A DNA stretch of 64,000 nt from Burkholderiaceae bacterium (GCA_023150375.1 JAKLLA010000004.1:186001-250000); one strand, 5' to 3'. Shown: positions 22,763 to 46,658, counted from the stretch's first letter. Made by a program: numbers and translations. The notes: a model not told the origin generated them from the sequence alone.

Positions 22763-23047
22763 TCAGGACGGCAGTGCCAGGGCCAGTCTGCCCCAGCTCG
22801 AGCAGGGGGCCGCCTCGTCGGCGACCTGGTCGACCACCTCGACCAGACCCTTGTCGAGCAGCTCGTTCACCACCGCCAGCAGCCACTGCGGGTCGTGCTC
22901 GGGGTCGGTCAGCCGTGCCAGCGGGGTGTAGCCGGTCAGCCGCATCAGGACTCGCTCGTGCGAGGCTGGCAGCACCCCGGTCCCCCAGGCCAGGGCCTGG
23001 CCCGCGGCACTGCGACGCACGATATGGTTCAGCGCGATCGAAGTCAT
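22763..23047 (-). CDS. Small conserved-looking protein of unknown function (94 aa)
   Basis: Intact ORF divergent from the plcP-like gene; no family recognised. Confidence 0.55.
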   Translation of the reverse strand: MTSIALNHIVRRSAAGQALAWGTGVLPASHERVLMRLTGYTPLARLTDPEHDPQWLLAVVNELLDKGLVEVVDQVADEAAPCSSWGRLALALPS

Positions 23048-23150: not shown

Positions 23151-23179
23151 CTTTCATCGTGCTGTCACAAAACGTGTGA
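23151..23179 (+). promoter_or_regulatory. Pho-box-like array upstream of the plcP-like gene (distal)
   Basis: CTTTCAT-CGTG-CTGTCAC-AAAA-CGTGTGA, exact 11-bp periodicity. Confidence 0.65.
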
Positions 23180-23211
23180 GCGCCGGTCTGGCGGCCTGGC
23201 CTGCCACATCG

Positions 23212-23240
23212 CCGTCATGCCGACTTCAACGTGCCGTCAC
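23212..23240 (+). promoter_or_regulatory. Pho-box-like array upstream of the plcP-like gene (proximal)
   Basis: CCGTCAT-GCCG-ACTTCAA-CGTG-CCGTCAC, exact 11-bp periodicity. Confidence 0.55.
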
Positions 23241-23263
23241 GGGCGCGCGCCAGCATGCCCGGC

Positions 23264-24256
23264 ATGAACAGCGCCACTCCGACCGAGCTCGGCCGCCTGG
23301 TGGCGGCCACGATCGCCCGCGAGGCGGAGGCGGCCCCGCTCGCCCGCCGTCCCCCGGTGTCCGTCACGGACGAAGGCCAGCGCCGCGAGCGCCTGCGCAG
23401 CGTCTTCATCTCCGACCTGCACCTGGGCACGCCTGGCTGCCAGGCCGAGGCGCTGCTGGACTTCCTGCGCTGCGTCGAATGCGAGCAGCTCTACCTGGTG
23501 GGCGACATCATCGACGGCTGGCAGCTGCGCCGCCGCTGGTTCTGGCCGCAGTCGCACAACGACGTGGTGCAGAAGATCCTGCGCAAGGCCCGCAAGGGCA
23601 CCCGGGTGATCTACGTGCCGGGCAACCACGACGAGTTTGCCCGTCGCTACGTGCAGCACAGCTTCGGCGGCGTCGAGGTGGTGGAGGACTGCGTGCACGT
23701 CACCGCCGACGGGCGCCGCCTGTGGGTGATGCACGGTGACCTGTTCGACGGCGTGGTGCAGTGCGCGCGCTGGCTGGCGCACCTGGGCGACCACCTCTAC
23801 GAGTTCTCGCTCGAGCTCAACCGCCACCTCAACTCGCTGCGCGCCCGCCTCGGTCTGCCGTACTGGTCGCTGTCGCGCTACCTCAAGCTCAAGGTCAAGC
23901 GTGCGGTGAGCTTCATCAGCGACTTCGAGCTGGCCGTGGCCCGCGAGGCCCGCCGCCGCGGTGTCGACGGCGTGGTCTGCGGCCACATCCACCACGCCGA
24001 ACTGCGCGACATCGACGGCCTGCTCTACGCCAACGACGGCGACTGGGTCGAGAGCCTGACCGCCCTGGTCGAGCACCCCGACGGCCGCCTGGAGATCGTC
24101 GACTGGGGCGCCCGCATGCGCCAGGCGCAGGATGCACAGCTGGCTCTGCCGGAGGCGGCCGGGACCGACCTGCAGGGCCTGCCGGGCATGACGGCGCCGG
24201 CGCCTGCCTGCGCGGTGCGGCGCGAGGCCGTGGATTCCCTGGGCGGCCCGACATGA
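23264..24256 (+). CDS. PlcP-type metallophosphoesterase (commonly annotated LpxH-like UDP-2,3-diacylglucosamine diphosphatase)
   Basis: FISDLHLGTPGCQAEALLDFLR...YLVGDIIDGWQLRRRWFWPQSHNDVVQKILRKARKGTRVIYVPGNHDEFAR...VCGHIHHAELRDI...NDGDWVESLTALVEH, matching remembered Sinorhizobium PlcP-type proteins. Confidence 0.82.
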   Translation: MNSATPTELGRLVAATIAREAEAAPLARRPPVSVTDEGQRRERLRSVFISDLHLGTPGCQAEALLDFLRCVECEQLYLVGDIIDGWQLRRRWFWPQSHNDVVQKILRKARKGTRVIYVPGNHDEFARRYVQHSFGGVEVVEDCVHVTADGRRLWVMHGDLFDGVVQCARWLAHLGDHLYEFSLELNRHLNSLRARLGLPYWSLSRYLKLKVKRAVSFISDFELAVAREARRRGVDGVVCGHIHHAELRDIDGLLYANDGDWVESLTALVEHPDGRLEIVDWGARMRQAQDAQLALPEAAGTDLQGLPGMTAPAPACAVRREAVDSLGGPT

Positions 24257-24948
24257 GCCGTTCCGCTCCCGCTCCCGTACCCGCCGGCTCGGTCGTGCTC
24301 TGCGGCCCCTGGCAACGCCCCGCCGTGCCGCCCGCGCGGCCCTCCCACTGGCTCGAATGGCTCGAGCAGCTCTTTCTCACCCGGGGCAAGCGGCGCTGCA
24401 TGCCCGAGGACAAGGTGGACCTGCTGTCGCATTCGCTGCAGTGCGCCCAGCTGGCCGAGTGGGCCCATGCCGATGCGGAACTGGTCGCGGCCGCCTTCCT
24501 GCACGACGTCGGGCACCTGCTGCCGGCCGTCGAGGCCGCGTCGCCGCGTGAAGGCCACGAGCGGCGCGCGCTGCCCTGGCTGACGCCGCATTTCGGCGAG
24601 GCCGTGACCGAGCCGATGCGCCTGCACGTGCAGGCCAAGCGCTACCTGGTGGGCTTCGACCGGCGCTACCTCGACGCCCTGTCGCCGGCCGCCCTGCACG
24701 GCCTGTCCCGCCAGGGGGGGCCGATGAGCTCGCAGGAGCTGCGCCGCTTCGAGCGGGAAGCCTTCGCGCCGGAGGCCATCCGGCTGCGCGTCTGGGACGA
24801 TCTGGCGCAGCACCCGGGCAAGGCCACGCCGCCGCTGGCGCATTACCTGGGGCTGCTGGAGCAGCTGATGGGGGCGCCGCGCCCGCGGGCCGCCGAGGCG
24901 GCGCCGGACGAGCCGCGGCGCTTCGCGGCCTTTCGGGCCGCCTGCTGA
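24253..24948 (+). CDS. HD-domain protein of the phosphonate-operon-associated (PhnZ/TIGR03276-like) family
   Basis: ATGA overlap with upstream gene; DLLSHSLQCAQLAEWAHADAELVAAAFLHDVGHLL...VTEPMRLHVQAKRYLVGFDRRYLDALSPAALHGLSRQGGPMS. Confidence 0.78.
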   Translation: MSRSAPAPVPAGSVVLCGPWQRPAVPPARPSHWLEWLEQLFLTRGKRRCMPEDKVDLLSHSLQCAQLAEWAHADAELVAAAFLHDVGHLLPAVEAASPREGHERRALPWLTPHFGEAVTEPMRLHVQAKRYLVGFDRRYLDALSPAALHGLSRQGGPMSSQELRRFEREAFAPEAIRLRVWDDLAQHPGKATPPLAHYLGLLEQLMGAPRPRAAEAAPDEPRRFAAFRAAC

Positions 24949-25048
24949 ACCGCCTGGCGAGAGGTCGGCCTCACAGGCTGCCGGGTGGGGCAGTGCCGCC
25001 TCGGGTCCGCATCGAGGTGGTGCGGGCTGCAGGGGGCTGCGCGCAGGC

Positions 25049-26104
25049 TCAGTCGGCGACCTGCCCCGCGGGCGACCCCGGGTCCGGCCTCGGGCCGTCC
25101 GGCGACGTGCGGCTCGACGCCTCCCACTGTGTCCACCACTGCGCAAAGCGCTGCAGGCCCTCGTGCAGCGGCGTGGCCTCCCAGGGGCCGATGGCCTCGA
25201 TCAGGCGCGCCGGATCGGCGCAGGTCAGCGCCACGTCACCGGGCGGCATGTCGGCCAGCTCGATGCGGGCAGGCTGCTGCAGCGCCCGTTCCAGTTCGCG
25301 CACGAAGTCCAGCACGCGCACCGGCCTGTGGTGGCCGACGTTCAGCACCTCGGCCGCAATGCCGCCCGCGCCGACCGGGCCCGGGCCGCGCGCGACCAGC
25401 CGCGTGATCGCGTCGGTCACATCGCCGATCCAGGTGAAGTCGCGCAGCAGCTGACCCTGGCCATACAGCTGCAGCGTCTGGCCGCGCCGGATGCGCTCGG
25501 TGAAGGTCCAGCAGGCCATGTCCGGCCGTCCCCAGGGGCCGTAGACGGTGAAGAAGCGCAGGCCGGTGACAGGCAGGCCGTGCACCGCCGCCGTGGCATG
25601 CGCCATCGCCTCGTTGGCCTGTTTGGTGGCGGCGTAGAAGGACGCCGGGCGGTCGCTGCGGTCGTCCTCCCGGAAGCCGCGCGCCAGCGACTGGGCCTCA
25701 CGCTGACCGTAGACGCTCGAGGAGCTGGCGTACAGCAGATGCGCCACGCCGTGGCGGCGCGAGGCCTCCAGGATGCTGGCGAAGCCCAGCAGGTTCGCCC
25801 GCACGTAGGCCATCGGCGCGTGCAGCGAGTGGCGCACGCCGGCCTGTGCGGCCAGATGCAGCACGACCTCGAAGCGCTGGCGGGCGAACCAGGCGTCCAG
25901 GTCCGCCACCGCGCAGATGTCGCGCACCTCGACGGCCACGCCCAGCGGGTCGAGCAGATGCCGCACGCGCGCGTGCTTGAGCGCCGGCGAGTAGTACGCA
26001 TCGAAGTTGTCGCAGCCCACCACCCGGTGCCCTGCTCGCGCCAGTGCTGCAGCCGCGTGTGCGCCGATGAAGCCGGCTGCGCCGGTGACGAGGATGGACG
26101 CCAT
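25049..26104 (-). CDS. NAD-dependent epimerase, UDP-glucuronate 4-epimerase-like
   Basis: ILVTGAAGFIGAHAA, HLAAQAGVRHSL, SSSSVYG, YAATKQANE, RFFTVYGPWGRPDMA, LLRDFTWIGDVTDAI. Confidence 0.88.
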   Translation of the reverse strand: MASILVTGAAGFIGAHAAAALARAGHRVVGCDNFDAYYSPALKHARVRHLLDPLGVAVEVRDICAVADLDAWFARQRFEVVLHLAAQAGVRHSLHAPMAYVRANLLGFASILEASRRHGVAHLLYASSSSVYGQREAQSLARGFREDDRSDRPASFYAATKQANEAMAHATAAVHGLPVTGLRFFTVYGPWGRPDMACWTFTERIRRGQTLQLYGQGQLLRDFTWIGDVTDAITRLVARGPGPVGAGGIAAEVLNVGHHRPVRVLDFVRELERALQQPARIELADMPPGDVALTCADPARLIEAIGPWEATPLHEGLQRFAQWWTQWEASSRTSPDGPRPDPGSPAGQVAD

Positions 26105-26148
26105 CGCGTGATGATATGTGCAGGAATCGACGGTTCGAGAGGGCGCCC

Positions 26149-26166
26149 ATGTCGGCGCTGTGACGT
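26149..26166 (-). promoter_or_regulatory. Weak Pho-box-like pair upstream of the epimerase
   Basis: Minus strand ACGTCAC-AGCG-CCGACAT, 11-bp spacing. Confidence 0.25.
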
Positions 26167-26236
26167 TGCGGCGCGTCGACACCCGGGCGGCAGCCGTCAC
26201 CGGCCTGCCTCGGAAGGATCCGAGCATCGGCTCTCC

Positions 26237-26515
26237 ATGAGCCTGCTCCTGTCCGCCTTGCGACCCGGCGCGCCGACCTTTCGGTGGCCCGCGCGGCAGG
26301 CTGGCCTCGTCCGGCTGGGGGTCCTGTTGGGACTGCTGGGGTTGCTGTCCCTGGCGGCCAGGCTGGAGCGGACCTCCACAGGCACCGCGCCGCGCTGGGA
26401 GGTGCTGTACGACCAGCGCGGCCTGATGCTGCTGCGCTGGCACGCTGCGGCAGCGTCTTCGGGCACCACCGGCATGGCCGGCCGGGCGGCACGTACCGCC
26501 CCGGCTGCGCTGTGA
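26237..26515 (+). CDS. Small predicted membrane protein (unknown)
   Basis: One hydrophobic segment LVRLGVLLGLLGLLSLAA; upstream of the PAP2 gene in the same direction. Confidence 0.45.
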   Translation: MSLLLSALRPGAPTFRWPARQAGLVRLGVLLGLLGLLSLAARLERTSTGTAPRWEVLYDQRGLMLLRWHAAAASSGTTGMAGRAARTAPAAL

Positions 26516-26585
26516 GTGGCCGGCCGTGGCCTCGATTCCCGGGCCGGACCGGTTCCGTCCTGCCCGAACCCCAAGGAGAGCGCGC

Positions 26586-27389
26586 TTGTTGAGTTCCCGC
26601 AGCCTTTCGTGGTCGAACCTGCTGCCCGGCGGGCCCGCCGACGCGCCCGCCTGGCGGCCGGCCTTCCTGCGGCGTCAGCGGGTGCGACTGGCCTGGCTGG
26701 CCGCGGCCTCGCTGGCGTTGCTGGTGTTCCGGGGCTGGCCGGAACTGGATGTCGTCGTCACCGGGTGGTTCTATCGTCCCCAGACCTGGCCGGCGTTTCC
26801 GGTGGGCGAATGGGCGCCGGTGCAGCTCGTCTATCAGGCCGTGCCCTGGCTCGGACGCCTGGCCCTGCTGCTGTGCCTGCTGGCCTGCCTGCTGCCGCGC
26901 CGTCGGGCGGCTGCGGGGCTGGCGCTGCGCTGGCATCGGCGCGCCTTCGCCCTGCTGCTGGTGCTGCTGCTCGGCCTGGGTGCCCTGGTCAACGGCGTTT
27001 TCAAGGAAGGCATCGGCCGACCGAGACCGCACACGGTGCAGGACTTCGGCGGACCGCACCCCTTCCAGCCGGTGGGCTGGGCGGCTCGGGGCTGCGAGGG
27101 CAACTGTTCCTTCGTCAGCGGTCATGCGGCGACCGGCTTCCTGCTGATGGCTTGCGGGCTGGTCGGCGGCCCCGCCACCCGCCGACGCTGGGCCTGGACC
27201 GGCGCGCTGGCCGGCGCTTCGATCGGTGCCGGACGCGTGGTGCAGGGCGGCCATTTCCTGAGCGACAGCGTCTTCGCCGGCCTGGCGATGGGGGCTGTCT
27301 GCCTGCTGCTGCGGGCCGTCTGGGTGCGGCTGCGCGGCTGGCGGCTGCGGCGTACGCGTCTGCCGCAGCCGCTTCAATGCGCCATGTGA
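26586..27389 (+). CDS. PAP2-family membrane phosphatase, probable TTG start
   Basis: KEGIGRPRPHTVQDF...CSFVSGHAATGF...GAGRVVQGGHFLSD; AAGGAG SD at 26573-26578. Confidence 0.88.
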   Translation: MLSSRSLSWSNLLPGGPADAPAWRPAFLRRQRVRLAWLAAASLALLVFRGWPELDVVVTGWFYRPQTWPAFPVGEWAPVQLVYQAVPWLGRLALLLCLLACLLPRRRAAAGLALRWHRRAFALLLVLLLGLGALVNGVFKEGIGRPRPHTVQDFGGPHPFQPVGWAARGCEGNCSFVSGHAATGFLLMACGLVGGPATRRRWAWTGALAGASIGAGRVVQGGHFLSDSVFAGLAMGAVCLLLRAVWVRLRGWRLRRTRLPQPLQCAM

Positions 27390-28129
27390 ACTTCTGCCTC
27401 GGCCGGAATGGCGGCGAGGCGGTGGTCGCAGAGCAGCAGCAGCACCGGGCGTGGCCCGACCGGCGCCTGAGCCGCCCGCTCGCGCATGCGCCAGAAGTGG
27501 CGCGACAGGCCGTCCACCGCCATGCGGGTCTCGCGGCAACGGCCCGGCTGGCCGATGCGCAGGCGCGGGCGCAGCTCCAGGTCACCGGGCTCCCGCTTCG
27601 GCGGCGGCGGGTCGACGAGCAGGCCGGGGACCTCGATCAGCAGCGTCAGCGGTGTCGCCGCCTGGCTGCGAAGGTGGGGGCGCTGGCGCCGCCCGAGGGT
27701 CTGCCACAGCGCAGCGTCTGCCTGCGCCGCCGGTACCCAGCCGATCACCGCCTCGTCCGGCGTGGCCACGCAGCGGGCGGCCGTGTGCGTCGACAGCCAG
27801 GCCTGCAAGGGCGGGCGCCGCTGCCCCGGACCCAGCCAGACCGCTTCAGGCCGGTCCCGCAGCTGCCCGAGCACGGCCAGGGCGGCCGCGGCCGGCATCG
27901 GCCTGTCGTCGGCGGTCTCGAGGCCGGCCAGTTCGACCACCCGGCCGGGATGGGTCAGGGCCTCCAGCAGGGCCAGGAAGGTCTGCCGGGCAGGGTCGTC
28001 CTGGCCGACGTCCTCGGACACCATGCCGCCCGGGGGCGGCACCGGGAAGCGCCGCAGCGGTTCGACGATCGGCGCCGGGGCGGCGGTGGCCGTCGCCTGC
28101 GGGACGGGGAGGGGATGCGGTGCGTTCAT
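27374..28129 (-). CDS. PhnH-like protein (C-P lyase core component family), orphan
   Basis: RQTFLALLEALTHPGRVVELAGL...TPDEAVIGWV...TPLTLLIEVPGL...RPVLLLLCDHRLAAIPAEAEV aligns by eye with E. coli PhnH. Confidence 0.72.
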   Translation of the reverse strand: MNAPHPLPVPQATATAAPAPIVEPLRRFPVPPPGGMVSEDVGQDDPARQTFLALLEALTHPGRVVELAGLETADDRPMPAAAALAVLGQLRDRPEAVWLGPGQRRPPLQAWLSTHTAARCVATPDEAVIGWVPAAQADAALWQTLGRRQRPHLRSQAATPLTLLIEVPGLLVDPPPPKREPGDLELRPRLRIGQPGRCRETRMAVDGLSRHFWRMRERAAQAPVGPRPVLLLLCDHRLAAIPAEAEVHMAH

Positions 28130-28193
28130 CGATGGCTCCGGAACCGGGCGGCGCGTGCGGGTCGCAGGTGCCGCCGCCCTCGGTGAATCGTCG

Positions 28194-28823
28194 TCAGCCG
28201 GCCCCGTCGGCTGCCGGGGGCAGTTCCAGCCGGCGACCGTGGCGTGCGTAGCTGAGCTTCTCGAGGAAGCCCCGGCCGCTGCGCCCGGCGCGCTGCCGGG
28301 CGGCCTTCGGGCGGGGTGACAGGGCCAGCTTGTCGGCACCGGCCTGCCGGGCCACTTCGCTGGCCTGGGCGATCAGGCGCCGCGCGATGCCGAGGTGGTG
28401 TGCCTGCGGCCGCACGAGCAGATCGTCCGCCCAGCCCGCGCGGCCGCCGCCGGTCAGCAGCGGCAGCAGGTACAGCGTCAGCGCCCCGAGCAGTTCGCCG
28501 TCGCGCTCGGCCAGCCAGAGCTGTCCGCCGGCGGCCTCGAGATCCGCCCAGCGGCGCGGCAGGTCCAGGGTCGCTTCGTCCCGGGCGTCGCCCAGGCCGC
28601 AGTCCTGCTGCAGTGCGCGCCAGGCGGCCAGGTCGGCGGCGTGGGCCCGACGCAACTGCACGGCACCCGGCGACCGGGTGGCCGAGCGGGCCGCCGGTTC
28701 CAGCCTGCGCACCGCCTCCAGCGCCCGCTGCGGCGTGAGGGCGCCGAGCAGGCCGGCCGCGGCGCGCGCGGTGGCCGCGCCGAGGGAGAGCCGTTTCGGA
28801 CCGGGAGGGCGAGGCGGTGTCAT
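28194..28823 (-). CDS. GNAT-family N-acetyltransferase
   Basis: LRRAHAADLAAWRAL...LWLAERDGELLGALTLYLLPL...WADDLLVRPQAHHLGIARRLIAQASEVARQAGADKLALS. Confidence 0.85.
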   Translation of the reverse strand: MTPPRPPGPKRLSLGAATARAAAGLLGALTPQRALEAVRRLEPAARSATRSPGAVQLRRAHAADLAAWRALQQDCGLGDARDEATLDLPRRWADLEAAGGQLWLAERDGELLGALTLYLLPLLTGGGRAGWADDLLVRPQAHHLGIARRLIAQASEVARQAGADKLALSPRPKAARQRAGRSGRGFLEKLSYARHGRRLELPPAADGAG

Positions 28824-28963
28824 GGCGGGGGGTCCTGGGGCAGTTCCGGTCGGCGTCGCAGGCGGGGGGGCGCGACGCCGGCGCGTGAGACGGTGCGAAG
28901 CTGTGGCGGCGAGGCCCGCGTGCGCTGCCGGAACCTGCCCAGGTGCGAGCCTCGCAGCCCGTC

Positions 28964-28992
28964 TTGACACCGGTGTGAAAGGGCTGCGACAG
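28964..28992 (-). promoter_or_regulatory. Pho-box-like array upstream of GNAT-phnH
   Basis: Minus strand CTGTCGC-AGCC-CTTTCAC-ACCG-GTGTCAA, exact 11-bp periodicity. Confidence 0.6.
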
Positions 28993-29027
28993 GCCCGCGG
29001 GGGCGTTGCGGCCGCTGCCCGCCTGCC

Positions 29028-29054
29028 GAGCGGCCTGTCGAGCGGCCTGTCGAG
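29028..29054. repeat. 12-bp tandem repeat GAGCGGCCTGTC x2 plus partial third copy
   Basis: 29028-29039 and 29040-29051 identical; GAG at 29052-29054 begins a third unit. Confidence 0.85.
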
Positions 29055-29092
29055 CGGTGACCTGCCGCTCGCCTGTCACCGGCAGGTCACCG
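29055..29092. repeat. 13-bp perfect inverted repeat, 12-nt loop
   Basis: CGGTGACCTGCCG (29055-29067) / CGGCAGGTCACCG (29080-29092). Confidence 0.9.
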
Positions 29093-29112
29093 GCCTGTCG
29101 GCAGGCTGTCGC
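29073..29112 (+). promoter_or_regulatory. Four-unit Pho-box-like array upstream of the LplT-like gene
   Basis: CTGTCAC-CGGC-AGGTCAC-CGGC-CTGTCGG-CAGG-CTGTCGC, exact 11-bp periodicity, 40 bp before ATG. Confidence 0.65.
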
Positions 29113-29152
29113 GGCCGGCGTCGGACACTGCCGCGCTGCCCGCCCGTTCCCC

Positions 29153-30409
29153 ATGCCGCCCGGTTTCCACCTGCTGATCGCCGCCCAGTTCGCCTCTGCG
29201 CTGGCCGACAACGCCCTGCTGATCGTCGCCATTGCCCTGCTGGCGCAGCAGGGCCTGCCGGCCTGGCTGGCGCCGCTGCTGAAGTTCGGCTTCATCCTCT
29301 CCTATGTACTGCTGGCCCCCTTCGTCGGGCCGCTGGCCGATGCCTTCGCGAAGGCGCGGCTGATGGCGGTCATGAACGGCGTGAAGGTCCTGGGCGTGAT
29401 CGGCCTGCTGCTCGGCTGGCATCCGGTGGCGGCCTTCACGCTGGTCGGCCTGGGCGCCGCCGCCTATGCGCCGGCGAAGTACGGCCTGCTCACCGAACTG
29501 GTGCCGCCGCATCGACTGGTGCTGGCCAATGGCTGGCTGGAGGTGTCGGTGGTCTGCGCCGCCCTGTTCGGGACCGTGCTCGGCGGCGCCCTGGTCAGCC
29601 CGGCGCTGCTGGAACGGGGCGGGCAATGGGCCCTGCTCTGGCCGTCGGTGGCGGCCGAGACGGGCCCTCTGGGCCTGTCCTGCGTGCTGCTGCTGGGGGT
29701 CTATGCCGCGGCGGCGCTGCTCAATGTCGGCGTGCCCGACAGCGGCGCGCGCTACCCGGCGTCGAACTTTCATCCGCTGGCCCTGCTGCGCGATTTCCGC
29801 CTCGCCAACCGAACGCTCTGGCGCGACCGGGAGGGCGGCCTGTCGCTGGCGGTGACGACGATCTTCTGGGGTGTGGGCGCCACGCTGCAGTTCGCCGTGC
29901 TGCGCTGGGCGGCCGAGCGGCTGCAGCTGCCGCTGGACCGGGCGGCCTACCTGCAGGCCGCCGTCGCGGTGGGCGTGATCGCCGGTGCGACCCTGGCCGC
30001 GCGGCGTGTGCCGCTCGGGCGTGCGCTGCGCATGCTGCCGGCGGGCGTGCTGCTCGGGCTGCTGATCGCCTGGGTGGCCCTGCTCGGCGAGCCGCACTGG
30101 GCGCTGCCGGGCCTGGTGGCGGTGGGCGCGACCGGCGGACTGCTGGTGGTGCCGCTCAACGCGCTGCTGCAGCACCGCGGCTGCACCCTGCTCAGCGCCG
30201 GCCGGTCGATCGCGGTGCAGGGCTTCAACGAGAACGCCAGCGTGCTCGGCATGCTCGCGGTCTATGCCCTGCTGCTGCGCCTCGAGGTGCCGATCGTGCC
30301 GTTGATGGTCGCCTTCGGCCTGTCGATCGCCGTGGCGCTGGGCGGGATGACCTGGCGGCAGCGCCGCCTGCCGGGCGCGGTGGCGTGGCCGCAGCCGCCG
30401 GGATCCTGA
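29153..30409 (+). CDS. lplT: MFS lysophospholipid transporter LplT-like
   Basis: FHLLIAAQFASALADNALLIVAIALL...KFGFILSYVLLAPFVGPLADAF...MAVMNGVKVLG. Confidence 0.85.
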   Translation: MPPGFHLLIAAQFASALADNALLIVAIALLAQQGLPAWLAPLLKFGFILSYVLLAPFVGPLADAFAKARLMAVMNGVKVLGVIGLLLGWHPVAAFTLVGLGAAAYAPAKYGLLTELVPPHRLVLANGWLEVSVVCAALFGTVLGGALVSPALLERGGQWALLWPSVAAETGPLGLSCVLLLGVYAAAALLNVGVPDSGARYPASNFHPLALLRDFRLANRTLWRDREGGLSLAVTTIFWGVGATLQFAVLRWAAERLQLPLDRAAYLQAAVAVGVIAGATLAARRVPLGRALRMLPAGVLLGLLIAWVALLGEPHWALPGLVAVGATGGLLVVPLNALLQHRGCTLLSAGRSIAVQGFNENASVLGMLAVYALLLRLEVPIVPLMVAFGLSIAVALGGMTWRQRRLPGAVAWPQPPGS

Positions 30410-30418
30410 CGCGTCCGA

Positions 30419-31696
30419 TCAGTGCGGCAGGGGCGGTGCCACCGGTGCGCCGGCGGCATGGGCCGCGGCGATGCCGTGACCGGCCTGCGGCGTCGTCCGG
30501 CCGCGCGCTTCCACGCGCTGGCGCAGCAGCGACTCGAAGCGCTCGACCACCCGCTCCCAGCCCTGGTCGAGCATCGAGGCGCGGGCCTGCCGGCCCAGGG
30601 CGCGGCGTCGGGCGGGGTCGTCGAGCAGTTCGCCGAGCAGCCGGGTGAAGTCCGCCGCATCGCCGGGCGCGGCCAGCAGGCCGTTCTCGCCGTGGCGCAC
30701 CAGCTCGGCGGCGGCGGCGTGGTCGTAGGCCAGCAGGGCCAGGCCGCTGGCCAGCGCCTCGGGGGTGACGTTGCCGTAGGTCTCGGTCAGGCTGGGAAAG
30801 GCGAACAGGTCGGCCGAGGCATAGTGCGCGGCCAGATCGTCGCCGTGGCGCGGCCCGGCGAAGATGGCGTTCGGGCAGCGTGCCTGCAGCGCCGCGCGCT
30901 GCGGCCCGTCGCCCACCAGCAGCAGGCGCGCGCGCGGGTGGCGTGCCTGCAGGGCCTCGCAGGCCTGCACCAGGGTCAGCAGGTTCTTCTCCGGGGCCAG
31001 CCGGCCCACGCAGAGCAGCACCGGGTCCTGCGGGGCGACGCCCCAGCATGCGCGCAGGGCCTCGCTGCGGCACTCGGGGTGAAAGCGTGCGGTGTCCACG
31101 CCACGCGCCACCACGTCGAGCCGCTCGAAGCCCTGCCCGGCCAGCTCGCGGCGCAGCGCCTCGGTGGGCACCAGGGTCAGGTCGCAGCGGCGGTGAAAGG
31201 CCCGCAGCCAGGCCAGTACGAGGCCCTGCGACCAGCCGAACCGGTAGTGGCGGCTGTAGGCGTGGAAGTTGGTGCGGAAGTCCGAGGTCACCGGCAGGCC
31301 CAGCCGATGCGCGGCCTGTACCGCCGCCCAGCCCAGCGGCCCCTCGGTGGCCACATGCACCAGGTCCGGCCGGCGGTGCCGCCACAGCTGCTGCAGGCGC
31401 GCCGGCCGGGCCCAGCCCATGCGCAGGTCGGGATAGAGCGGCAGGGGGCTGCCGGCGCAGACCTCGAGATGGATCGCCGGATCGTGCTGCGCCAGCGCCG
31501 CACGCTCGCGCTGGCCCTGGTGCGGGCGCAGCAGCGTCACGCGGTGGCCGCGCTGCACCAGCCCCTGCACGAAGCGGGCGGCCGACAGCGACACGCCGTT
31601 GACCTCGGGCGGCCAGGTCTCGGTGACGTAGGCGATGCGCAGCGCCGGCGGTGCGGCCGGCGTCGGGACGGTCGGGGCAGTCGAGGCAAGGGCCAT
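30419..31696 (-). CDS. GT4-family glycosyltransferase (MgtA/Agt-like, candidate glycolipid synthase)
   Basis: RIAYVTETWPPEVNGVSLSAARFVQGL...LVHVATEGPLGWAA...LLCVGRLAPEKNLLTLVQA...FPSLTETYGNVTPEALASG. Confidence 0.85.
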   Translation of the reverse strand: MALASTAPTVPTPAAPPALRIAYVTETWPPEVNGVSLSAARFVQGLVQRGHRVTLLRPHQGQRERAALAQHDPAIHLEVCAGSPLPLYPDLRMGWARPARLQQLWRHRRPDLVHVATEGPLGWAAVQAAHRLGLPVTSDFRTNFHAYSRHYRFGWSQGLVLAWLRAFHRRCDLTLVPTEALRRELAGQGFERLDVVARGVDTARFHPECRSEALRACWGVAPQDPVLLCVGRLAPEKNLLTLVQACEALQARHPRARLLLVGDGPQRAALQARCPNAIFAGPRHGDDLAAHYASADLFAFPSLTETYGNVTPEALASGLALLAYDHAAAAELVRHGENGLLAAPGDAADFTRLLGELLDDPARRRALGRQARASMLDQGWERVVERFESLLRQRVEARGRTTPQAGHGIAAAHAAGAPVAPPLPH

Positions 31697-31718
31697 GCGG
31701 CCATGCTGGGCGGACCCG

Positions 31719-31747
31719 GCAACAGCGCGATGACAGCGCCGTGTCGG
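31719..31747 (-). promoter_or_regulatory. Pho-box-like array upstream of the glycosyltransferase
   Basis: Minus strand CCGACAC-GGCG-CTGTCAT-CGCG-CTGTTGC, exact 11-bp periodicity. Confidence 0.6.
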
Positions 31748-31760
31748 ACCTGACACGGCG

Positions 31761-31802
31761 TGGTCACAGCCGATTCATGCGGCCTCGTCACGCTCCCGTC
31801 AC
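31761..31802 (+). promoter_or_regulatory. Two Pho-box-like pairs upstream of the 31860 ORF
   Basis: TGGTCAC-AGCC-GATTCAT and TCGTCAC-GCTC-CCGTCAC, each 11-bp spaced. Confidence 0.45.
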
Positions 31803-31859
31803 GGCCCGCGCGCAGGCGCTGCGGCGGGCTGCCCTCCCTTTCCACATCCGAGGTCGAAC

Positions 31860-32468
31860 GTGTCCGGACTCCTGCAAACCCTTGCCACCCAACGCTGGGA
31901 CGACCACCGCTACTACCACCAGAGCCGTGTCAACCAGACCCTGCACCTGATCAGTGCCTGCTCCTTCCTGGTGGCCTACGTGCTGCTTTTCGTCGATCCG
32001 GCGATGGCCGCGATCGTCGGCTGGTGCGTGTCGATGGTGACGCGCCAGTCGGGCCATTTCTTCTTCGAGCCGCGCGGCTTCGATCAGGTCAACCAGGTGA
32101 CCGACGAGTACAAGGAGGCCGTCAAGGTCGGCTACAACATGCGCCGCAAGACGCTGCTGCTGGCGGTGTGGGCGGCCATTCCGCTGGTGCTGTGGCTGCA
32201 GCCGGCGCTGTTCGGGCTGATCGAGCCGGCGCAGGGCGTCGACGGCTGGCTGCACGATGTGGGCATCGCCTGGCTGGCGCTGGCGGTCACCGGCATCGCC
32301 TTGCGCGTGCTGCAGCTGTCGCTGCAGGGTCGCCTTTCCGACGGCCTGATCTGGGCGCTGAAGATCCTCACCGATCCCTTCCACGACATCCGCCTGTACT
32401 GGAAGTCGCCGCTGGCGCTGCTGCGCGGCGAGTGGATCGACCCGATGCCGCATGTGCGGCCGCACTGA
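31860..32468 (+). CDS. Membrane protein of unknown function, possibly distantly Mpo1/DUF962-like (uncertain); GTG start
   Basis: YYHQSRVNQTLHLISACSFLVAYVLLF...RQSGHFFFEPRGFDQVNQVTDEYKEAVKVGYNMRRK. Confidence 0.65.
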   Translation: MSGLLQTLATQRWDDHRYYHQSRVNQTLHLISACSFLVAYVLLFVDPAMAAIVGWCVSMVTRQSGHFFFEPRGFDQVNQVTDEYKEAVKVGYNMRRKTLLLAVWAAIPLVLWLQPALFGLIEPAQGVDGWLHDVGIAWLALAVTGIALRVLQLSLQGRLSDGLIWALKILTDPFHDIRLYWKSPLALLRGEWIDPMPHVRPH

Positions 32469-32517
32469 GCGATGCGCCGCACGCCCGGGCCGGGCCGCGG
32501 CCCGGCCCGGGGCGCGC

Positions 32518-34170
32518 TCAGAAGCGGGCGCGGATCAGTTCGCGCAGCAGGCCGCGGCGGATCGTGCGGTGGGTCATGCCCGGCGGCTGCCACCACCAGC
32601 CGTCGGCCTGCATCGCCCGGGCTGCGGCGACGAAGCGCTCGCACACCGCCTCGAAGGCCGCGTCGTCGTGGTTCAGGCTGAAGATCATCCGCCCGCTGCC
32701 CACCCAGCTCAGCCACAGCCCCTGCGCGCGCAGGTAGAACTGGAACATCCAGTGGTAGCGCGAGGGCTGGGTGTACAGCACGGTCCAGATGGTCGACAGG
32801 TTGGCCACCTGCACCGGCAGCCCCTCGGCCTGCAGGCGGCGGTTCAGCGCCTCGGCGCGGGCGTTCCAGCGCGCCTCCAGCCCGTCGTACAGGGCCTGCA
32901 CCGCGGGCGTCTGCAGGCGTTCGAGGAAGGCCTGCATCGCCCCCATCACGTAGGGGTGCGAATTGAAGGTGCCGCGCGCGAAGCAGATGTCGGCCGGGCG
33001 CGCCTCGCGCCAGCGCCGCATCAGGTCGCGCCGTCCGCAGACCACGCCCACCGGCAGGCCACCGCCGAGCGTCTTGCCGTAGGTCACCAGGTCGGCCTGC
33101 ACGCCGAAGTATTCCTGCGCACCGCCCGGGGCCAGCCGGAAGCCGACGAAGACCTCGTCGAAGATCAGCACGATGCCACGCTCGCTGCACACCGCGCGCA
33201 GGCGCTGCAGCCAGTCGGCATAGGCGGCGCGGTCGAAGCCGGCGCGGCGGCTGCCGTCGACCAGGCCGGAGTCGCCCGGCGCCGCGCTGTTCGGGTGCAG
33301 CGCCTGCAGCGGGTTGACCAGCACGCAGGCAATGTCGTCGCGCTGGCGCAGCACCTTCAGGCTGCGCTCGCTCATGTCCTGCAGGGTGTAGGTCTCGCGC
33401 GGGGGCAGCGGGTTGCCGGGGCCGGGCTGCACATCCTCCCACCAGCCGTGGTAGGCGCCGCAGAAGCGCACCAGGTACTTGCGGCGGGTGTGGTAGCGCG
33501 CCAGGCGCACCGCCTGCATCACGGCCTCGGTGCCGGACATGTGGAAGCTCACCTCGTCGAGCCCCGAGATCGCCTTCAGCCGCTCGGCGTTGGACAGCAC
33601 CGCCGGGTGGTAGGCGCCCAGCACCGGCCCGAGGGCCGCGGCGCGCGCGGCCCCCTCGGCGATGCAGACCTTGTAGAAGTCGTGGCCGAACAGGTTCACG
33701 CCGTACGAGCCTGCCAGGTCGAAGAAGCGGTTGCCGTCCAGGTCTTCCAGCTGCAGCCCCGAGCTGGCCTGCAGGAAGTTGCCCAGGGGCAGCCGTTCGC
33801 GCAGGTAGGGGCTGAACGGGAAGGGCACGCGGTAGCGGCCGGTGAACTGCAGGTCCGAGAGATGCTCGCGCGCCCGCGCGGTCATCTGCGCGCTGCGCGG
33901 CCAGCGCTCGGCGAAGGTCTGCGCCAGCCGCTCGAAGCCGGCGCGCCGCTGTGCGGCCACGTCTTCCGGCGCGTCGTCGGCGCAGAAGAAGCGTGCCTCG
34001 TCGTAGGCGTAGCCCGGCAGCAGCCGGGCCACCCGCTGCGCCATGCGCGAGTGCCCGGCCAGCGAGCGATGCTTGGCCCGCGACAGGGCGATGCGCCGCT
34101 GCAGGCGCGGCAGCCCGGTCGCAGCCAGCAGCGCGAGCGGGAGGGCGGAGAGAGAAGTCGTCGTATCCAT
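32518..34170 (-). CDS. Class III PLP aminotransferase (glutamate-1-semialdehyde aminomutase-like) with N-terminal extension
   Basis: DLDGNRFFDLAGSYGVNLFGHDF...FHMSGTEAVMQAVRLAR...RFCGAYHGWWED...IFDEVFVGFR...VTYGKTLGGGLPVGVV. Confidence 0.88.
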   Translation of the reverse strand: MDTTTSLSALPLALLAATGLPRLQRRIALSRAKHRSLAGHSRMAQRVARLLPGYAYDEARFFCADDAPEDVAAQRRAGFERLAQTFAERWPRSAQMTARAREHLSDLQFTGRYRVPFPFSPYLRERLPLGNFLQASSGLQLEDLDGNRFFDLAGSYGVNLFGHDFYKVCIAEGAARAAALGPVLGAYHPAVLSNAERLKAISGLDEVSFHMSGTEAVMQAVRLARYHTRRKYLVRFCGAYHGWWEDVQPGPGNPLPPRETYTLQDMSERSLKVLRQRDDIACVLVNPLQALHPNSAAPGDSGLVDGSRRAGFDRAAYADWLQRLRAVCSERGIVLIFDEVFVGFRLAPGGAQEYFGVQADLVTYGKTLGGGLPVGVVCGRRDLMRRWREARPADICFARGTFNSHPYVMGAMQAFLERLQTPAVQALYDGLEARWNARAEALNRRLQAEGLPVQVANLSTIWTVLYTQPSRYHWMFQFYLRAQGLWLSWVGSGRMIFSLNHDDAAFEAVCERFVAAARAMQADGWWWQPPGMTHRTIRRGLLRELIRARF

Positions 34171-34200
34171 GGATCCCAGCCAGAACGGATCCCCCTGTGT

Positions 34201-34229
34201 AGCCACCGCGATTGACATGCCGATGAAAA
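34201..34229 (-). promoter_or_regulatory. Pho-box-like array upstream of the aminotransferase, overlapping the psd start
   Basis: Minus strand TTTTCAT-CGGC-ATGTCAA-TCGC-GGTGGCT. Confidence 0.4.
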
Positions 34230-35140
34230 CCCACGTCCTGCCCACCCCGCGCCGCCTGCGCGACCGCCTGCTGCTGCAGGAGGACCTGAACTTCCTGCTC
34301 ACCAACCGGGTGCCGCGCATCGCGCTGACCCGCCTGATGGGCTGGTACAGCGGCATCCGCAGCCCGGGGCTGACGGCGCTGTCGATCCGCATCTGGCGGC
34401 TGTTCACCGACCTGGACCTCTCCGAGGCCGAGCCGCGCCGCTATGCCAGCCTGCAGGAATGCTTCACCCGTGCGCTGCGCCCCGGCGCGCGCTGCATCGA
34501 CCCGCGCCCCGACGTGCTGGCCAGCCCCTGCGACGGCATCGTCGGCGCCTGCGGCCGGGTGCGCGACGGCCAGCTCTTCCAGGCCAAGGGCTTCCCGTAC
34601 CGGCTCGAGGACCTGTTCGGGCCGAGCCAGGACAGCTCGGCCTTCCGCGACGGCTGCTACGTCACGCTGCGCCTGACCTCGTCGATGTACCACCGCTTCC
34701 ACGCCCCGGCGGACGCGACGCTGCAGCATGTCACCTACCTCAGCGGCGACACCTGGAACGTCAACCCGATCGCGCTGAAGCGCGTCGAGCGGCTGTTCTG
34801 CCGCAACGAGCGCGCGGTGCTGAACCTGCGCCTGGCGGCAGGCGGCCAGCCGCTGGCGCTGGTGCCGGTGGCGGCCATCCTGGTGGCCAGCCTGCGCCTG
34901 CACGCGCTGGACCTGCTGCTGCACCTGCGCTGGCGCGGGCCGAACGAGATCCCGGCCGACGTGCCGCTGGCCAAGGGCGAGGAACTCGGCTGGTTCCAGC
35001 ACGGCTCGACGATCATCGTCTTCGCCCCGCCGGGCTTCACCTTCTGCGAGGGCATCGTCGAGGGCGCGCGCATCCGCATGGGTCAGGCGCTGCTGCGCAT
35101 GCCGTCACCGCCGCCGGAGCGGCCGCTGGCCCCGGGCTGA
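34217..35140 (+). CDS. Phosphatidylserine decarboxylase family protein
   Basis: LASPCDGIVGACG, MYHRFHAPADATL, self-cleavage-type HGSTIIVF near C-terminus. Confidence 0.87.
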   Translation: MPMKTHVLPTPRRLRDRLLLQEDLNFLLTNRVPRIALTRLMGWYSGIRSPGLTALSIRIWRLFTDLDLSEAEPRRYASLQECFTRALRPGARCIDPRPDVLASPCDGIVGACGRVRDGQLFQAKGFPYRLEDLFGPSQDSSAFRDGCYVTLRLTSSMYHRFHAPADATLQHVTYLSGDTWNVNPIALKRVERLFCRNERAVLNLRLAAGGQPLALVPVAAILVASLRLHALDLLLHLRWRGPNEIPADVPLAKGEELGWFQHGSTIIVFAPPGFTFCEGIVEGARIRMGQALLRMPSPPPERPLAPG

Positions 35141-38217: not shown

Positions 38218-39141
38218 TCAGTACACCTCGGGCACGTACATCTCCGCCGGCACCGGCTGGCGGATGTATTCGGCGTGGCGCACCCGCTCGGGCAGCACCA
38301 CCGGCTCGCGCGGGACGTCGTGGTAGTCGAACTGCCCGAGCAGGTGGTGGATGCAGTTCAGCCGGGCGCGCTTCTTGTCCACCGCCTGCACCACCCACCA
38401 GGGCGCCTCGGGGATGTGGGTGCGCTCGAGCATGGCCTCCTTGGCCTTGGTGTAGTCCTCCCAGCGGCGCCGGCTTTCCAGGTCCATCGGGCTCAGCTTC
38501 CACTGCTTGAGCGGGTCGTGGATGCGGCTGAGGAAGCGCAGGTGCTGCTCCTCGTCGGTGATCGAGAACCAGTACTTGATCAGCCGGATGCCCGAGCGCA
38601 CCAGCATGCGCTCGAACTCGGGCACCGAGCGGAAGAACTCCTCGACGTCGTCCTCGCTGCAGAAGCCCATCACCCGCTCGACGCCGGCGCGGTTGTACCA
38701 GCTGCGGTCGAACAGCACCATCTCGCCGGCGGCGGGCAGGTGCGGCACGTAGCGCTGGAAGTACCACTGCGTGCGCTCGCGGCTGTTGGGCGCGGGGAGC
38801 GCGACGGTGCGGCACACGCGCGGGTTCAGCCGCTGGGTGATGCGCTTGATCGCGCCGCCCTTGCCGGCGGCATCGCGCCCCTCGAACAAAATCACCACCT
38901 TCTGCCCGGTGTGGGCCACCCAGTCCTGCAGCTCCACCAGCTCGCCCTGCAGGCGGAACAGCTCGCGGAAGTAGCGCAGCCGGGCCTCGCGCACCTCGTC
39001 GCCGCGCACGGCGTCGTCGCCGGCCAGCACGTCCTCGGCGGTGCGGTCCTCGATCTCGAGTTCGAGTTCCTCGTCGTAGCCGTCGATCAGGTCGGCGCGC
39101 AGGCGGCGCAGCAGCTCGTCGGGGTCTTGGCGGTCGTCCAT
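38218..39141 (-). CDS. ppk2: Polyphosphate kinase 2 family protein
   Basis: VVILFEGRDAAGKGGAIKRI...LFDRSWYNRAGVERVMGFC; start could be 39150. Confidence 0.93.
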   Translation of the reverse strand: MDDRQDPDELLRRLRADLIDGYDEELELEIEDRTAEDVLAGDDAVRGDEVREARLRYFRELFRLQGELVELQDWVAHTGQKVVILFEGRDAAGKGGAIKRITQRLNPRVCRTVALPAPNSRERTQWYFQRYVPHLPAAGEMVLFDRSWYNRAGVERVMGFCSEDDVEEFFRSVPEFERMLVRSGIRLIKYWFSITDEEQHLRFLSRIHDPLKQWKLSPMDLESRRRWEDYTKAKEAMLERTHIPEAPWWVVQAVDKKRARLNCIHHLLGQFDYHDVPREPVVLPERVRHAEYIRQPVPAEMYVPEVY

Positions 39142-39188
39142 GGTGTGCATCGCCCAGGCGGGCGGCCGGGAAGGAAGGCCTACAGCTT

Positions 39189-39217
39189 CCATGACGTTCG
39201 TGTCCGTTCGATGACAA
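39189..39217 (-). promoter_or_regulatory. Weak Pho-box-like array upstream of ppk2
   Basis: Minus strand TTGTCAT-CGAA-CGGACAC-GAAC-GTCATGG. Confidence 0.3.
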
Positions 39218-39263
39218 CTCCGCGTGCGCAATCCCCGGTCGCGCCGCCGCATCGCCGCGGACT

Positions 39264-40898
39264 TCAGCGTCGGGCCCGCGGCGGTTCGACCTCGGCCAGC
39301 GTCTGCAAGGCCTGCTGCACCGACGCGCGCCCCGCCTCGAGGCGGGCGGCCAGCCAGCCCAGCGCGAACCAGGCGGCCGGCTGGGCCGGCAGCAGGGCTT
39401 GGTAGTGCGTGCGCGCGACGAACAGGTCGTTGAGCTCGCCCATGCGGTCCTGCAGCAGCGCCAGCCGCGCCAGGTAGCGCGCGCTGCCGCGTCGGCGCAG
39501 CAGGGGGGCGAAGAACTCCACCGCGTAGCGCTGCCGCTTCACGCGCTTGCGCAGCGCGTGCACCGCCGGCTCCTCCAGCGTGTCGAAGTCCCGGGCTTCG
39601 GCCACGATGCGGGCGTGCCAGCGCGCCAGCCGGCGCTCGGCCCGACGGGGCAGGGGCACGGCCGGTGCGGGCGGCTGTTCCGGATCCGGGGCCGCAGGCC
39701 ACGATGCCCTGTCCGCGGCGGCGGCGGGGAGCGACGGCGGTTCGGTGCCGGCCGACGCGGCCGTTGCCGCGGGCGCGTCGGGCAACGCTTCCTGCGCCTG
39801 GGCGGGTGTCGTCGCGGCCGGCGTCGCCTCGACGGGCAGGCGGTCGCGCCAGCCCATCCAGAGGCGCAGGGCGCGCTGCGCCTCGTCGCGGCGCAGCACG
39901 GCCTGCGGGTCGGCCACGGTCGCCGTCGGCGCGGCCTGCACCGGCGGTGCACCGACCCGCGCCAGTTCGGCGGTCACGCCGCTGTCCAGCACGTCGGCAT
40001 CGCGGCAGGCGCCCAGGGCGGCGAACAGCGCCTTCAGCCCGTCCAGGTCGTCCTCGGCCGGCTGCGGCGCCCAGCCCTCGAAGCAGCGCAGCGCGCTGCG
40101 CAGGCGGCGGATGCCCACGCGCAGCTGGTGCACATGTTCGGCGCGCAGGCCGGGGTCGCCCTGGAGCACGCCGACGGCATTGCGGGCGATCTGGTCGACG
40201 CACTCGTCGATCGCCGCGGACATCGCCTGCGGCGCCCCAGCCGGTGCGGCATAGGCGGGCAGGCGCGCCTTGCGCAGCGGCGGATGCGGCTGGCCGAGCG
40301 ACAGCCCGGCGCCCCGTTCGGCCAGATCGCGCGGCTCGAGCTGCAGCCCGAAACGCTCGCTCCAGCGCTGTGCCAGCGCCTCCAGCGCCTCGGGCGGTCC
40401 GGCGAGTCGCCGCAGGCCGAGTTCGCACACCGGCAGGCGCGCGCCGGGCGCGATCAGATGGCCGCGGTCGAAGCACACCTCGATCAGCGCGCCGCGGCTG
40501 CGCAGCCTGCGCCTGCTGCGCCGAAGCTCGCAGCGGTAGCGCTCGGCCACCGCCACGCCGTCCGCCTCGGCGCGGCGCAGCAGGGCGAGCAGGCGCTCGC
40601 CCAGGGCGCTGCCGGCATGCAGCAGGGCGTCGGGCCGCTCCGAGGGGGCCAGCACCTCATGTTCGAGGCGGCCTGGGTCGCCGCCCCGGGCATCGACCCG
40701 ACGCAGCCGCTGGATCCAGCGCCGCCCTTCCTGCCGCTGGCACCAGACCAGCCCGACCCGGGCGAGCCGCCGGTCGGCGGTGTCCAGGTAGACGCTCGAG
40801 ATCGACCCCTGCTCCGGCGCACTGCGCCCGCGAACGGCCTTCGCCAGTTCGGCCTCGAGGTCTTGGGCGGTGGCCGCGGGTACCAGGAATCTGAGCAT
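39264..40898 (-). CDS. CYTH and CHAD domain protein
   Basis: N-terminal CYTH-like (ISSVYLDTADRRLARVGLVWCQR); C-terminal CHAD (VHQLRVGIRRLRSALRCF, VHALRKRVKRQRYAVEFF). Confidence 0.87.
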   Translation of the reverse strand: MLRFLVPAATAQDLEAELAKAVRGRSAPEQGSISSVYLDTADRRLARVGLVWCQRQEGRRWIQRLRRVDARGGDPGRLEHEVLAPSERPDALLHAGSALGERLLALLRRAEADGVAVAERYRCELRRSRRRLRSRGALIEVCFDRGHLIAPGARLPVCELGLRRLAGPPEALEALAQRWSERFGLQLEPRDLAERGAGLSLGQPHPPLRKARLPAYAAPAGAPQAMSAAIDECVDQIARNAVGVLQGDPGLRAEHVHQLRVGIRRLRSALRCFEGWAPQPAEDDLDGLKALFAALGACRDADVLDSGVTAELARVGAPPVQAAPTATVADPQAVLRRDEAQRALRLWMGWRDRLPVEATPAATTPAQAQEALPDAPAATAASAGTEPPSLPAAAADRASWPAAPDPEQPPAPAVPLPRRAERRLARWHARIVAEARDFDTLEEPAVHALRKRVKRQRYAVEFFAPLLRRRGSARYLARLALLQDRMGELNDLFVARTHYQALLPAQPAAWFALGWLAARLEAGRASVQQALQTLAEVEPPRARR

Positions 40899-41041
40899 CG
40901 GCGAAAGAGGGGGCGGGCATCCGCACGCACCCGATGTGCCGCGGTGCCTGATGCTAGCGATTCGGGCGCCGAGATCGATGACAGGACTCCCGGTGTGCGG
41001 CCTGTCGCCTCTGCGTGCCGGCACGTCGAGGGGGGCTGACG

Positions 41042-41070
41042 CCTTCACGCCGCTGTCATGCTGGCCGTCT
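41042..41070 (+). promoter_or_regulatory. Pho-box-like array upstream of the phytase-like lipoprotein
   Basis: CCTTCAC-GCCG-CTGTCAT-GCTG-GCCGTCT, 11-bp spacing. Confidence 0.4.
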
Positions 41071-41110
41071 AGCTTTGCGGGCTCCCCTACGAACCTCGAG
41101 GATCCCGGAC

Positions 41111-43453: not shown

Positions 43454-43641
43454 GCGACCAGCTCCGTGCCCGCCACGCCCGGCCACGCGCCCGGGCGTGG
43501 CCTCGGGCCAGGCCTGGAGGGGTCGCCACGATGCTGTCATCGAGACCTCCTACCGTGGCAGTGCGGCCCGGCCCGATGTCGGGCCGCCGGATGGCCGGGC
43601 GCCGATGTGTCCCGGCGCCTTCCCTTCCGAGCCGTACCGCC

Positions 43642-45513: not shown

Positions 45514-45596
45514 GCCCAGCGTCTCGCCGCAGCCGCCGGGGGGCCGGCTTTGCGCCTACGATGGCGCACCGACCCTGCCGCCCGACCTCGACCTGA

Positions 45597-46658
45597 ATGA
45601 GTGACGTTCCCGACGCGCCCCTGTCCACCGACGCCGCCGCCAACCCTGCCCAGGCGCTGCCCTACGGCAGCGACGAGAACGGCCTGATCTGCGGCTACCA
45701 CCATCTGCCCGGACAGGCGGCCACCGCGCTGGCCAGCGCCGATGCGGCGCTGCCGCACCTGCGCGAGCCCGGCGGCGGCTTCGTCTGGCTGCACATGAAC
45801 GTCGGCCATGTCGCGGCCGAGGGCTGGCTGCGCCGCCATGCCGGGCTGACCGACAACTTCTACGAGGCGCTGCACCAGGGCTCGCGCTCCACCCGCATCG
45901 AACGCGACGAGGACAGCCTCTTCGCGGTGATCAACGACGTCACCTTCGACTTCACCTTCGATGCCGGCGATGTCGCCACGCTCTGGGTCGCGGTGCGTCC
46001 CGGCCTGGTGGTGACGGCGCGGCGCCACCCGCTGCGCTCGGTCGACCGGCTGCGCCTGGCGGTGCGGCGCGGCGACCGGCTCGATTCCAGCGTCGCGCTG
46101 CTCGACCACCTGCTGGGCGACCAGGCCGACGAGCTGCAGCGCATCGTGCGCCAGGCCACCGACCGCGTCGACGACATCGAGGATGCGGTGCTGGCCGGGC
46201 ATCACCGCAGCCATACCACCGAGCTGGCGCAGCTGCGCCGGCTGATGGTGCGCCTGCAGCGCCTGCTGGCCCCCGAGCCGAGTGCGCTGCAGCGCACCCT
46301 GTCGAAGCCGCCGGCCTGGATCGGCGCCGAGGACATCGCCCACCTGCACCGCGCCAGCGAGGAGTTCGCGCTGGTGCTGCGCGACATCGGCGCACTGCAG
46401 GAGCGCATCAAGCTCATGCAGGACGAGGCCTCCGCCCGCGTGGCCGAGGAGAACAACCGCAGCCTGTTCATGCTGACCATGGTGACGGTGCTGGCCCTGC
46501 CGATCAACCTCACCGCCGGCCTGTTCGGCATGAACGTCGGCGGCATTCCCTGGGGCGAGCATCCGGCGGGCTTCTGGATCCTGCTGCTGTGGGTGGGCTC
46601 GCTCACCGGCCTGATCGCCGCGATCGCCTGGCGGCGCATGCGGCCGGCGGGCGAATGA
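45597..46658 (+). CDS. zntB: CorA/ZntB-family metal transporter
   Basis: C-terminal two-TM region with GLFGMNVGGIPW; long cytoplasmic helical domain. Confidence 0.87.
   Translation: MSDVPDAPLSTDAAANPAQALPYGSDENGLICGYHHLPGQAATALASADAALPHLREPGGGFVWLHMNVGHVAAEGWLRRHAGLTDNFYEALHQGSRSTRIERDEDSLFAVINDVTFDFTFDAGDVATLWVAVRPGLVVTARRHPLRSVDRLRLAVRRGDRLDSSVALLDHLLGDQADELQRIVRQATDRVDDIEDAVLAGHHRSHTTELAQLRRLMVRLQRLLAPEPSALQRTLSKPPAWIGAEDIAHLHRASEEFALVLRDIGALQERIKLMQDEASARVAEENNRSLFMLTMVTVLALPINLTAGLFGMNVGGIPWGEHPAGFWILLLWVGSLTGLIAAIAWRRMRPAGE

Follow-up and report, generated by a model that had tools for sequence, protein, structure and literature searches.

What does a cluster of lipid genes and phosphonate-type genes, set behind arrays of Pho-box-like heptamers, do for a Burkholderiales bacterium? 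The question is raised by a 64,000-nucleotide stretch of Burkholderiaceae DNA (GCA_023150375.1 JAKLLA010000004.1:186001-250000, hereafter the window) from a genome of 4.63 Mb and 73% GC, in which an initial annotation had placed a Pho-controlled lipid-remodelling island extended by phosphonate-type genes. Our analysis of the sequence indicates that the locus is probably a PhoB-controlled island for envelope lipid remodelling, with a core for an aminolipid beside a glycolipid. The genes and Pho arrays that had been described are present, and the lipid-remodelling interpretation holds, whereas a working phosphonate extension is not supported. From 22.8 to 38.2 kb the gene order is orf94 (-), PlcP (+), PhnZ-like HD protein (+), sugar epimerase (-), PAP2 (+), PhnH (-), GNAT (-), LplT (+), GT4 (-), Mpo1-like protein (+), class-III aminotransferase AT3 (-), phosphatidylserine decarboxylase-type protein Psd (+) and PepN (+). 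Every gene named initially was found, and its stated family agreed with Pfam and NCBIfam; the Mpo1-like gene (31860-32468), between GT4 and the aminotransferase, was absent from that list.

Because circularity had to be avoided, the Pho half-site matrix was trained on pstS upstream regions from 30 genomes, including the pstS of this genome and nothing from the window; about half of the 30 regions yielded a usable pair. Pairs were scored at 11-bp spacing, with 340 kb from elsewhere in the genome as background and expectations given per 11.4 kb. The island (23.0-34.4 kb) contains 16 pairs of at least 11 bits against 0.77 expected, 7 of at least 14 bits against 0.17, and 4 of at least 16 bits against 0.07. 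An assumed E. coli-like matrix, superseded by the pstS-trained one, had found 8 pairs above 14 bits in the 64-kb window compared with 1.2 in first-order Markov sequence. All but one of the island pairs lie at a gene start or no more than about 170 bases from one, the exception being a pair at 25222 within the epimerase gene. The arrays of 11-bp period reported 5' of plcP, GNAT-phnH, lplT and GT4 were borne out: boxes precede PlcP (23151-23240, + strand; a pair at 23151 and a heptamer run at 23201, 23212, 23223 and 23234; 19.3, 15.3, 12.7 and 11.3 bits), GNAT-PhnH (28964-28992, -; 14.0 and 12.0 bits), LplT (29073-29090, +; 16.7 bits) and GT4 (31719-31747, -; 12.1 and 15.6 bits), as well as the Mpo1-like gene (31750-31802, +; 12.5, 11.2 and 16.2 bits). 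Both boxes described as weaker are also present. That of the epimerase scores 13.4 bits (26149-26166, -), but "weak" does not suit the box between AT3 and Psd (34212-34229, -), which at 18.0 bits ranks second in the window.

The same arrangement recurs in relatives. When genome contigs were queried with AT3, at least 569 stretches proved related; the best 80 of these were read, and 73 loci of at least 9 kb were used. Among the matches listed, the closest (76%) come from Pelomonas and Piscinibacter and the similarity is in general to Burkholderiales, so that the host most likely belongs to this order and does not look alphaproteobacterial. AT3, the Mpo1-like gene and GT4 occur together in all 73 loci, with Psd in 71, LplT in 38 and PlcP in 33. 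More distant Proteobacteria retain AT3, Psd and the Mpo1-like gene in 11 of 11 further loci. A pair of at least 12 bits within 300 upstream bases was found in these 73 contigs, which come from other genomes and have the orthologous cluster, for AT3 (48/73), Psd (46/72), the Mpo1-like gene (63/73), GT4 (60/71), LplT (22/37) and PlcP (13/32). The range of 41-86% compares with 3.1% for random windows and 1.1% for those placed within core genes; the counts are not all independent, because neighbouring divergent genes share one upstream region. The promoter boxes, as predicted PhoB sites, strongly support the assignment of the island to the Pho regulon, and the conserved synteny and boxes support the initial proposal of Pho-controlled, PlcP-centred lipid remodelling. 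It is noted that six metagenome-assembled genome records (L129, L152, L167, L176, L177 and L186) bear this typically Burkholderiales cluster under the titles Bordetella parapertussis, Klebsiella pneumoniae, Chitinophaga pinensis or Akkermansia muciniphila, which look misassigned.

The frame of the island resembles a known pathway. In P. aeruginosa, marine heterotrophs and Methylosinus, PlcP and the glycosyltransferase Agt produce monoglucosyl diacylglycerol (MGDG) and glucuronic acid diacylglycerol (GADG) under phosphate stress; the P. aeruginosa paper also reports one further, unassigned glycolipid, for which no glycosyltransferase is known (PMC8528852, PMC4796936, PMC9239053). The PlcP-like protein of the window (23264-24256, +; Pfam Metallophos) can be read as a calcineurin-like metallophosphoesterase distinct from LpxH and a predicted phospholipase C, since its metal motifs D-x-H, GD, GNHD and GHxH are intact and the LpxH model scores far under its cut-off. 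Its gene is linked to a Pho-boxed glycosyltransferase here, and PlcP lies near the core in 33 of the 73 contigs. That glycosyltransferase (30419-31696, -; Pfam GT4) has lipid glycosyltransferase models among its top matches and is a predicted diacylglycerol hexuronosyl or hexosyl transferase. LplT (29153-30409, +) passes the NCBIfam equivalog cut-off for the lysophospholipid transporter (NF008397, 475.9 vs 297 bits). The NAD-dependent sugar epimerase (25049-26104, -; Pfam Epimerase) is predicted to be of the UDP-glucuronate-epimerase type; its top PDB match is 5u4q, at 275 bits. UDP-glucose dehydrogenase stands beside 14 of the 73 orthologous loci, which suggests UDP-glucuronic acid (UDP-GlcA) as the donor. 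As in the PlcP-Agt remodelling of Sinorhizobium, Phaeobacter, SAR11, P. aeruginosa (PA3219/PA3218/PA0842) and Methylosinus, a Pho-boxed PlcP and a GT4 are predicted to convert diacylglycerol to a phosphorus-free glycolipid. Unlike those systems, the island adds the core of AT3, a second Psd and the Mpo1-like protein, together with LplT, the epimerase and PAP2; its GT4 falls outside the Agt-type clade of relatives, and its genes form several divergent transcription units.

The core appears to be undescribed: a search of the open-access literature found no description of the AT3/Psd/Mpo1 combination, while the surrounding PlcP-type frame is already known. AT3 (32518-34170, -; Pfam Aminotran_3) is a class-III pyridoxal phosphate (PLP) aminotransferase with an invariant PLP lysine, Lys360, and an N-terminal hydrophobic helix; the hydrophobic segment is conserved in its orthologues. 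Its nearest solved relative, both by sequence profile (210 bits vs 155 for the next family) and by fold (6kfm, with a template modelling score of 0.82 on the target), is the aminotransferase (AMT) domain of MycA, the mycosubtilin synthase. The mycosubtilin synthase domain places an amino group on a beta-ketoacyl-acyl carrier protein (ACP). This kinship suggests an acyl or lipid substrate for AT3. The identity is about 26-28%, and AT3, unlike the MycA domain, is free-standing with an N-terminal hydrophobic helix. The island Psd (34217-35140, +) is one of two in the genome, the other being the housekeeping copy. It passes the family cut-off (TIGR00163, 156 vs 112 bits) and keeps the GST self-processing motif of phosphatidylserine decarboxylase. 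It differs from the housekeeping enzymes in its upstream Pho boxes, in its 32-36% identity to most housekeeping copies of relatives, and in its placement in a separate clade; a long, fully supported branch of the tree parts the two groups, with one distant row uncertainly placed. The Mpo1-like membrane protein (31860-32468, +) scores 22.4 bits against PF06127, whose cut-off is 24, and 19 of 23 orthologues match that family at E<=0.01. Its His, Gln and GHxxxE residues are invariant, and it may be an iron dioxygenase with acyl chains as its substrate. Together the three proteins make up a conserved core under predicted Pho control that may produce a phosphorus-free aminolipid of an undescribed kind.

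We propose that, when phosphate is exhausted, PhoB would bind the 11-bp-spaced boxes and the units of the island would be switched on together. PlcP would cleave phospholipids to diacylglycerol and a phosphorylated head group, and GT4 would transfer a sugar to the diacylglycerol to give a phosphorus-free glycolipid. These two steps are modelled on the established PlcP-Agt pathway (PMC4796936, PMC8528852, PMC9239053). The sugar would most likely be a hexuronic acid provided through the UDP-GlcA-type epimerase. LplT would return lysolipids for repair, PAP2 would dephosphorylate lipid A or some other lipid phosphate, and the membrane-anchored AT3, the second Psd and the Mpo1-like protein would make or tailor a phosphorus-free aminolipid alongside the glycolipid. 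Two observations weigh against this scheme. GT4 shows only about 32% identity to the Agt-type enzymes of relatives, so the sugar is a guess. AT3 is found in 16 of 61 relatives compared with 46 of 61 for PlcP, which makes the core optional to PlcP remodelling.

The phosphonate-type genes had been taken as a working extension of the module; they are better labelled probable remnants. The PhnH-like protein (27374-28129, -) is encoded once in the genome and scores 57.8 bits with the Pfam PhnH model (cut-off 25) and 48.3 with that of NCBIfam (cut-off 91.5). Its score of 58 bits compares with 160-211 bits in six relatives that have PhnJ. PhnJ, the catalytic subunit of carbon-phosphorus (C-P) lyase, was not found in the genome, with E. 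coli and the six relatives as positive controls, and a role of PhnH in an active C-P lyase was rejected on its absence and the divergent score. The adjacent GNAT acetyltransferase (28194-28823, -; Pfam Acetyltransf_1) reaches 29.7 bits with the PhnO-type model, whose cut-off is 142. The PhnZ/TmpB-family HD diiron oxygenase-like protein (24253-24948, +) overlaps the plcP stop by 4 bases and scores 171.5 bits with TIGR03276 (cut-off 214.6). TmpB and PhnZ are its PDB matches, and it may still act, because the metal ligands and the substrate-lysine motif HVxAKRYL are retained. No PhnY-type partner was found in the genome within the PhyH family, other 2-oxoglutarate oxygenase families not being searched. 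The island shares with the C-P lyase (phnGHIJKLM) and PhnY/PhnZ pathways one PhnH-like and one PhnZ-like gene with Pho boxes upstream, and differs from them in lacking PhnJ, in that no such PhnY was found, and in scores under the NCBIfam cut-offs.

A sister genome suggests where these genes came from. On one contig, over about 35 kb, genome G002 carries PlcP, phnG-phnH-phnI-phnJ and the HD gene next to phn transporter genes, and also PAP2, ArnT-like and ArnC-like transferases, epimerase, LplT, GT4, the Mpo1-like gene, AT3 and Psd. PhnH is probably a leftover, because phnGHIJ lies in the same island there; the window looks like a condensed island from which the C-P lyase core and the two transferases have disappeared, and PhnH, perhaps with GNAT and the HD protein, probably survives from a phosphonate operon, either as a remnant or in a new use. 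Same-genus genomes carry beside PlcP a shortened PhnH-like gene with a central deletion and no PhnJ; the ratio of nonsynonymous to synonymous rates (dN/dS) is 0.59, against 0.19 for PlcP, as measured on one genome pair and a short gene. We also observed that this shortened gene (L033:10592-11128, L034:10502-11038, L037:10171-10677) is divergent from plcP and has Pho boxes, which may reflect re-use or decay. The Pho mega-island of the sister genome is contiguous and unites the lipid core with ppx/ppk, phnGHIJ and lipid A-type transferases (L230, L231, G002:C31:30000-69000; L035). Elsewhere in the genome under study (C11), a phosphonate-type binding protein gives a strong match, with no Pho box nearby.

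Several other explanations have to be weighed. AT3 and Psd could serve only ordinary head-group metabolism, Psd supplying extra phosphatidylethanolamine (PE) for PlcP and AT3 degrading the freed amines. The intact pyruvoyl processing site of Psd fits this, as does the phosphoethanolamine that PlcP would release from PE, yet the island Psd belongs to a separate, widely conserved clade, and AT3 has a membrane-anchor-like N-terminus and a closest solved relative that uses acyl-ACP; we regard this as a reasonable but minority possibility. A specific form of the aminolipid proposal, in which the core is a dedicated pathway where AT3 adds an amino-acid-like group to a precursor of acyl or glycolipid type and decarboxylation by the Psd paralogue then yields an amine, is put forward tentatively. 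Methylation by a PmtA-like enzyme in other proteobacterial classes would, just as tentatively, complete a phosphorus-free parallel of the route from phosphatidylserine through PE to phosphatidylcholine. Six GC-rich loci among the further ones, from other proteobacterial classes, have a PmtA-like methyltransferase adjoining the core, and four of them an Agt-type glycosyltransferase too. Pho boxes accompany the core and the methyltransferase in the GC-rich genomes L246-L251, often together with the Agt-type gene.

The island could instead include a module that replaces lipid A phosphate, the LpxF-like PAP2 protein (26589-27389, +; Pfam PAP2) stripping the phosphate and an epimerase-derived hexuronic acid taking its place. 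This would recall hexuronosyl or aminoarabinosyl modification of lipid A (ArnC/ArnT, or RgtE/RgtD with LpxF), to which the epimerase and PAP2 are common, and relatives group the epimerase, two PAP2 genes, an ArnC-like GT2 and an ArnT-like GT83 with Pho boxes, the two Arn-like genes being carried by sister genomes as well. However, PAP2 falls far under the equivalog cut-off for the LpxF lipid A 4'-phosphatase (NF045633, 92.5 vs 400 bits), and no ArnT-like (GT83) transferase was found in the genome of the window, a weak negative; such a module is unlikely. Less likely still is an integrated lipid-plus-phosphonate system, in which PhnH, GNAT and the HD oxygenase dismantle phosphonate head groups, such as those that PlcP might free from phosphonolipids. 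The retained ligands of the HD protein and its overlap with plcP, the boxes before GNAT-PhnH and the phn genes within the G002 island speak for it; the absence of PhnJ, the search that found no PhyH-family PhnY, the divergence of PhnH, and the central deletion and dN/dS of 0.59 (PlcP 0.19) of the PhnH-like genes in relatives speak against it. Finally, the arrays might be chance matches or sites of another regulator, as some weak pairs of 11-12 bits would allow, but with the pstS-trained matrix the pairs are about 20 times as frequent as the genome's own background predicts and the box placement is conserved in 73 contigs, which makes this exceedingly improbable. A PhoB-controlled remodelling island with an aminolipid core beside the glycolipid branch remains the preferred explanation.

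The Pho island is larger than initially drawn and extends to about 46 kb. The continuation (38218-46658, mixed strands; Pfam assignments) encodes PPK2 (-), CHAD (-), a phytase-like esterase (+), a pyruvate-kinase-like protein (+) and CorA (+), with Pho boxes at 39200 (-), 41042 (+) and 43523 (+). At the other end, orf94 (22763-23047) is a small conserved open reading frame of 94 amino acids with no Pfam match; in relatives it recurs beside PlcP or ppx/ppk, often with Pho boxes near.

For a soil or water bacterium, the island would allow membrane lipids that contain phosphorus to be replaced by phosphorus-free ones. Relatives of AT3 occur in hundreds of proteobacterial contigs (at least 569 stretches). 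If the core does lead to a phosphorus-free aminolipid, it would provide a definite gene set for lipidomics of knock-outs; a class would be added to the known lipids, and phosphate stress in soils and fresh water would gain a marker.

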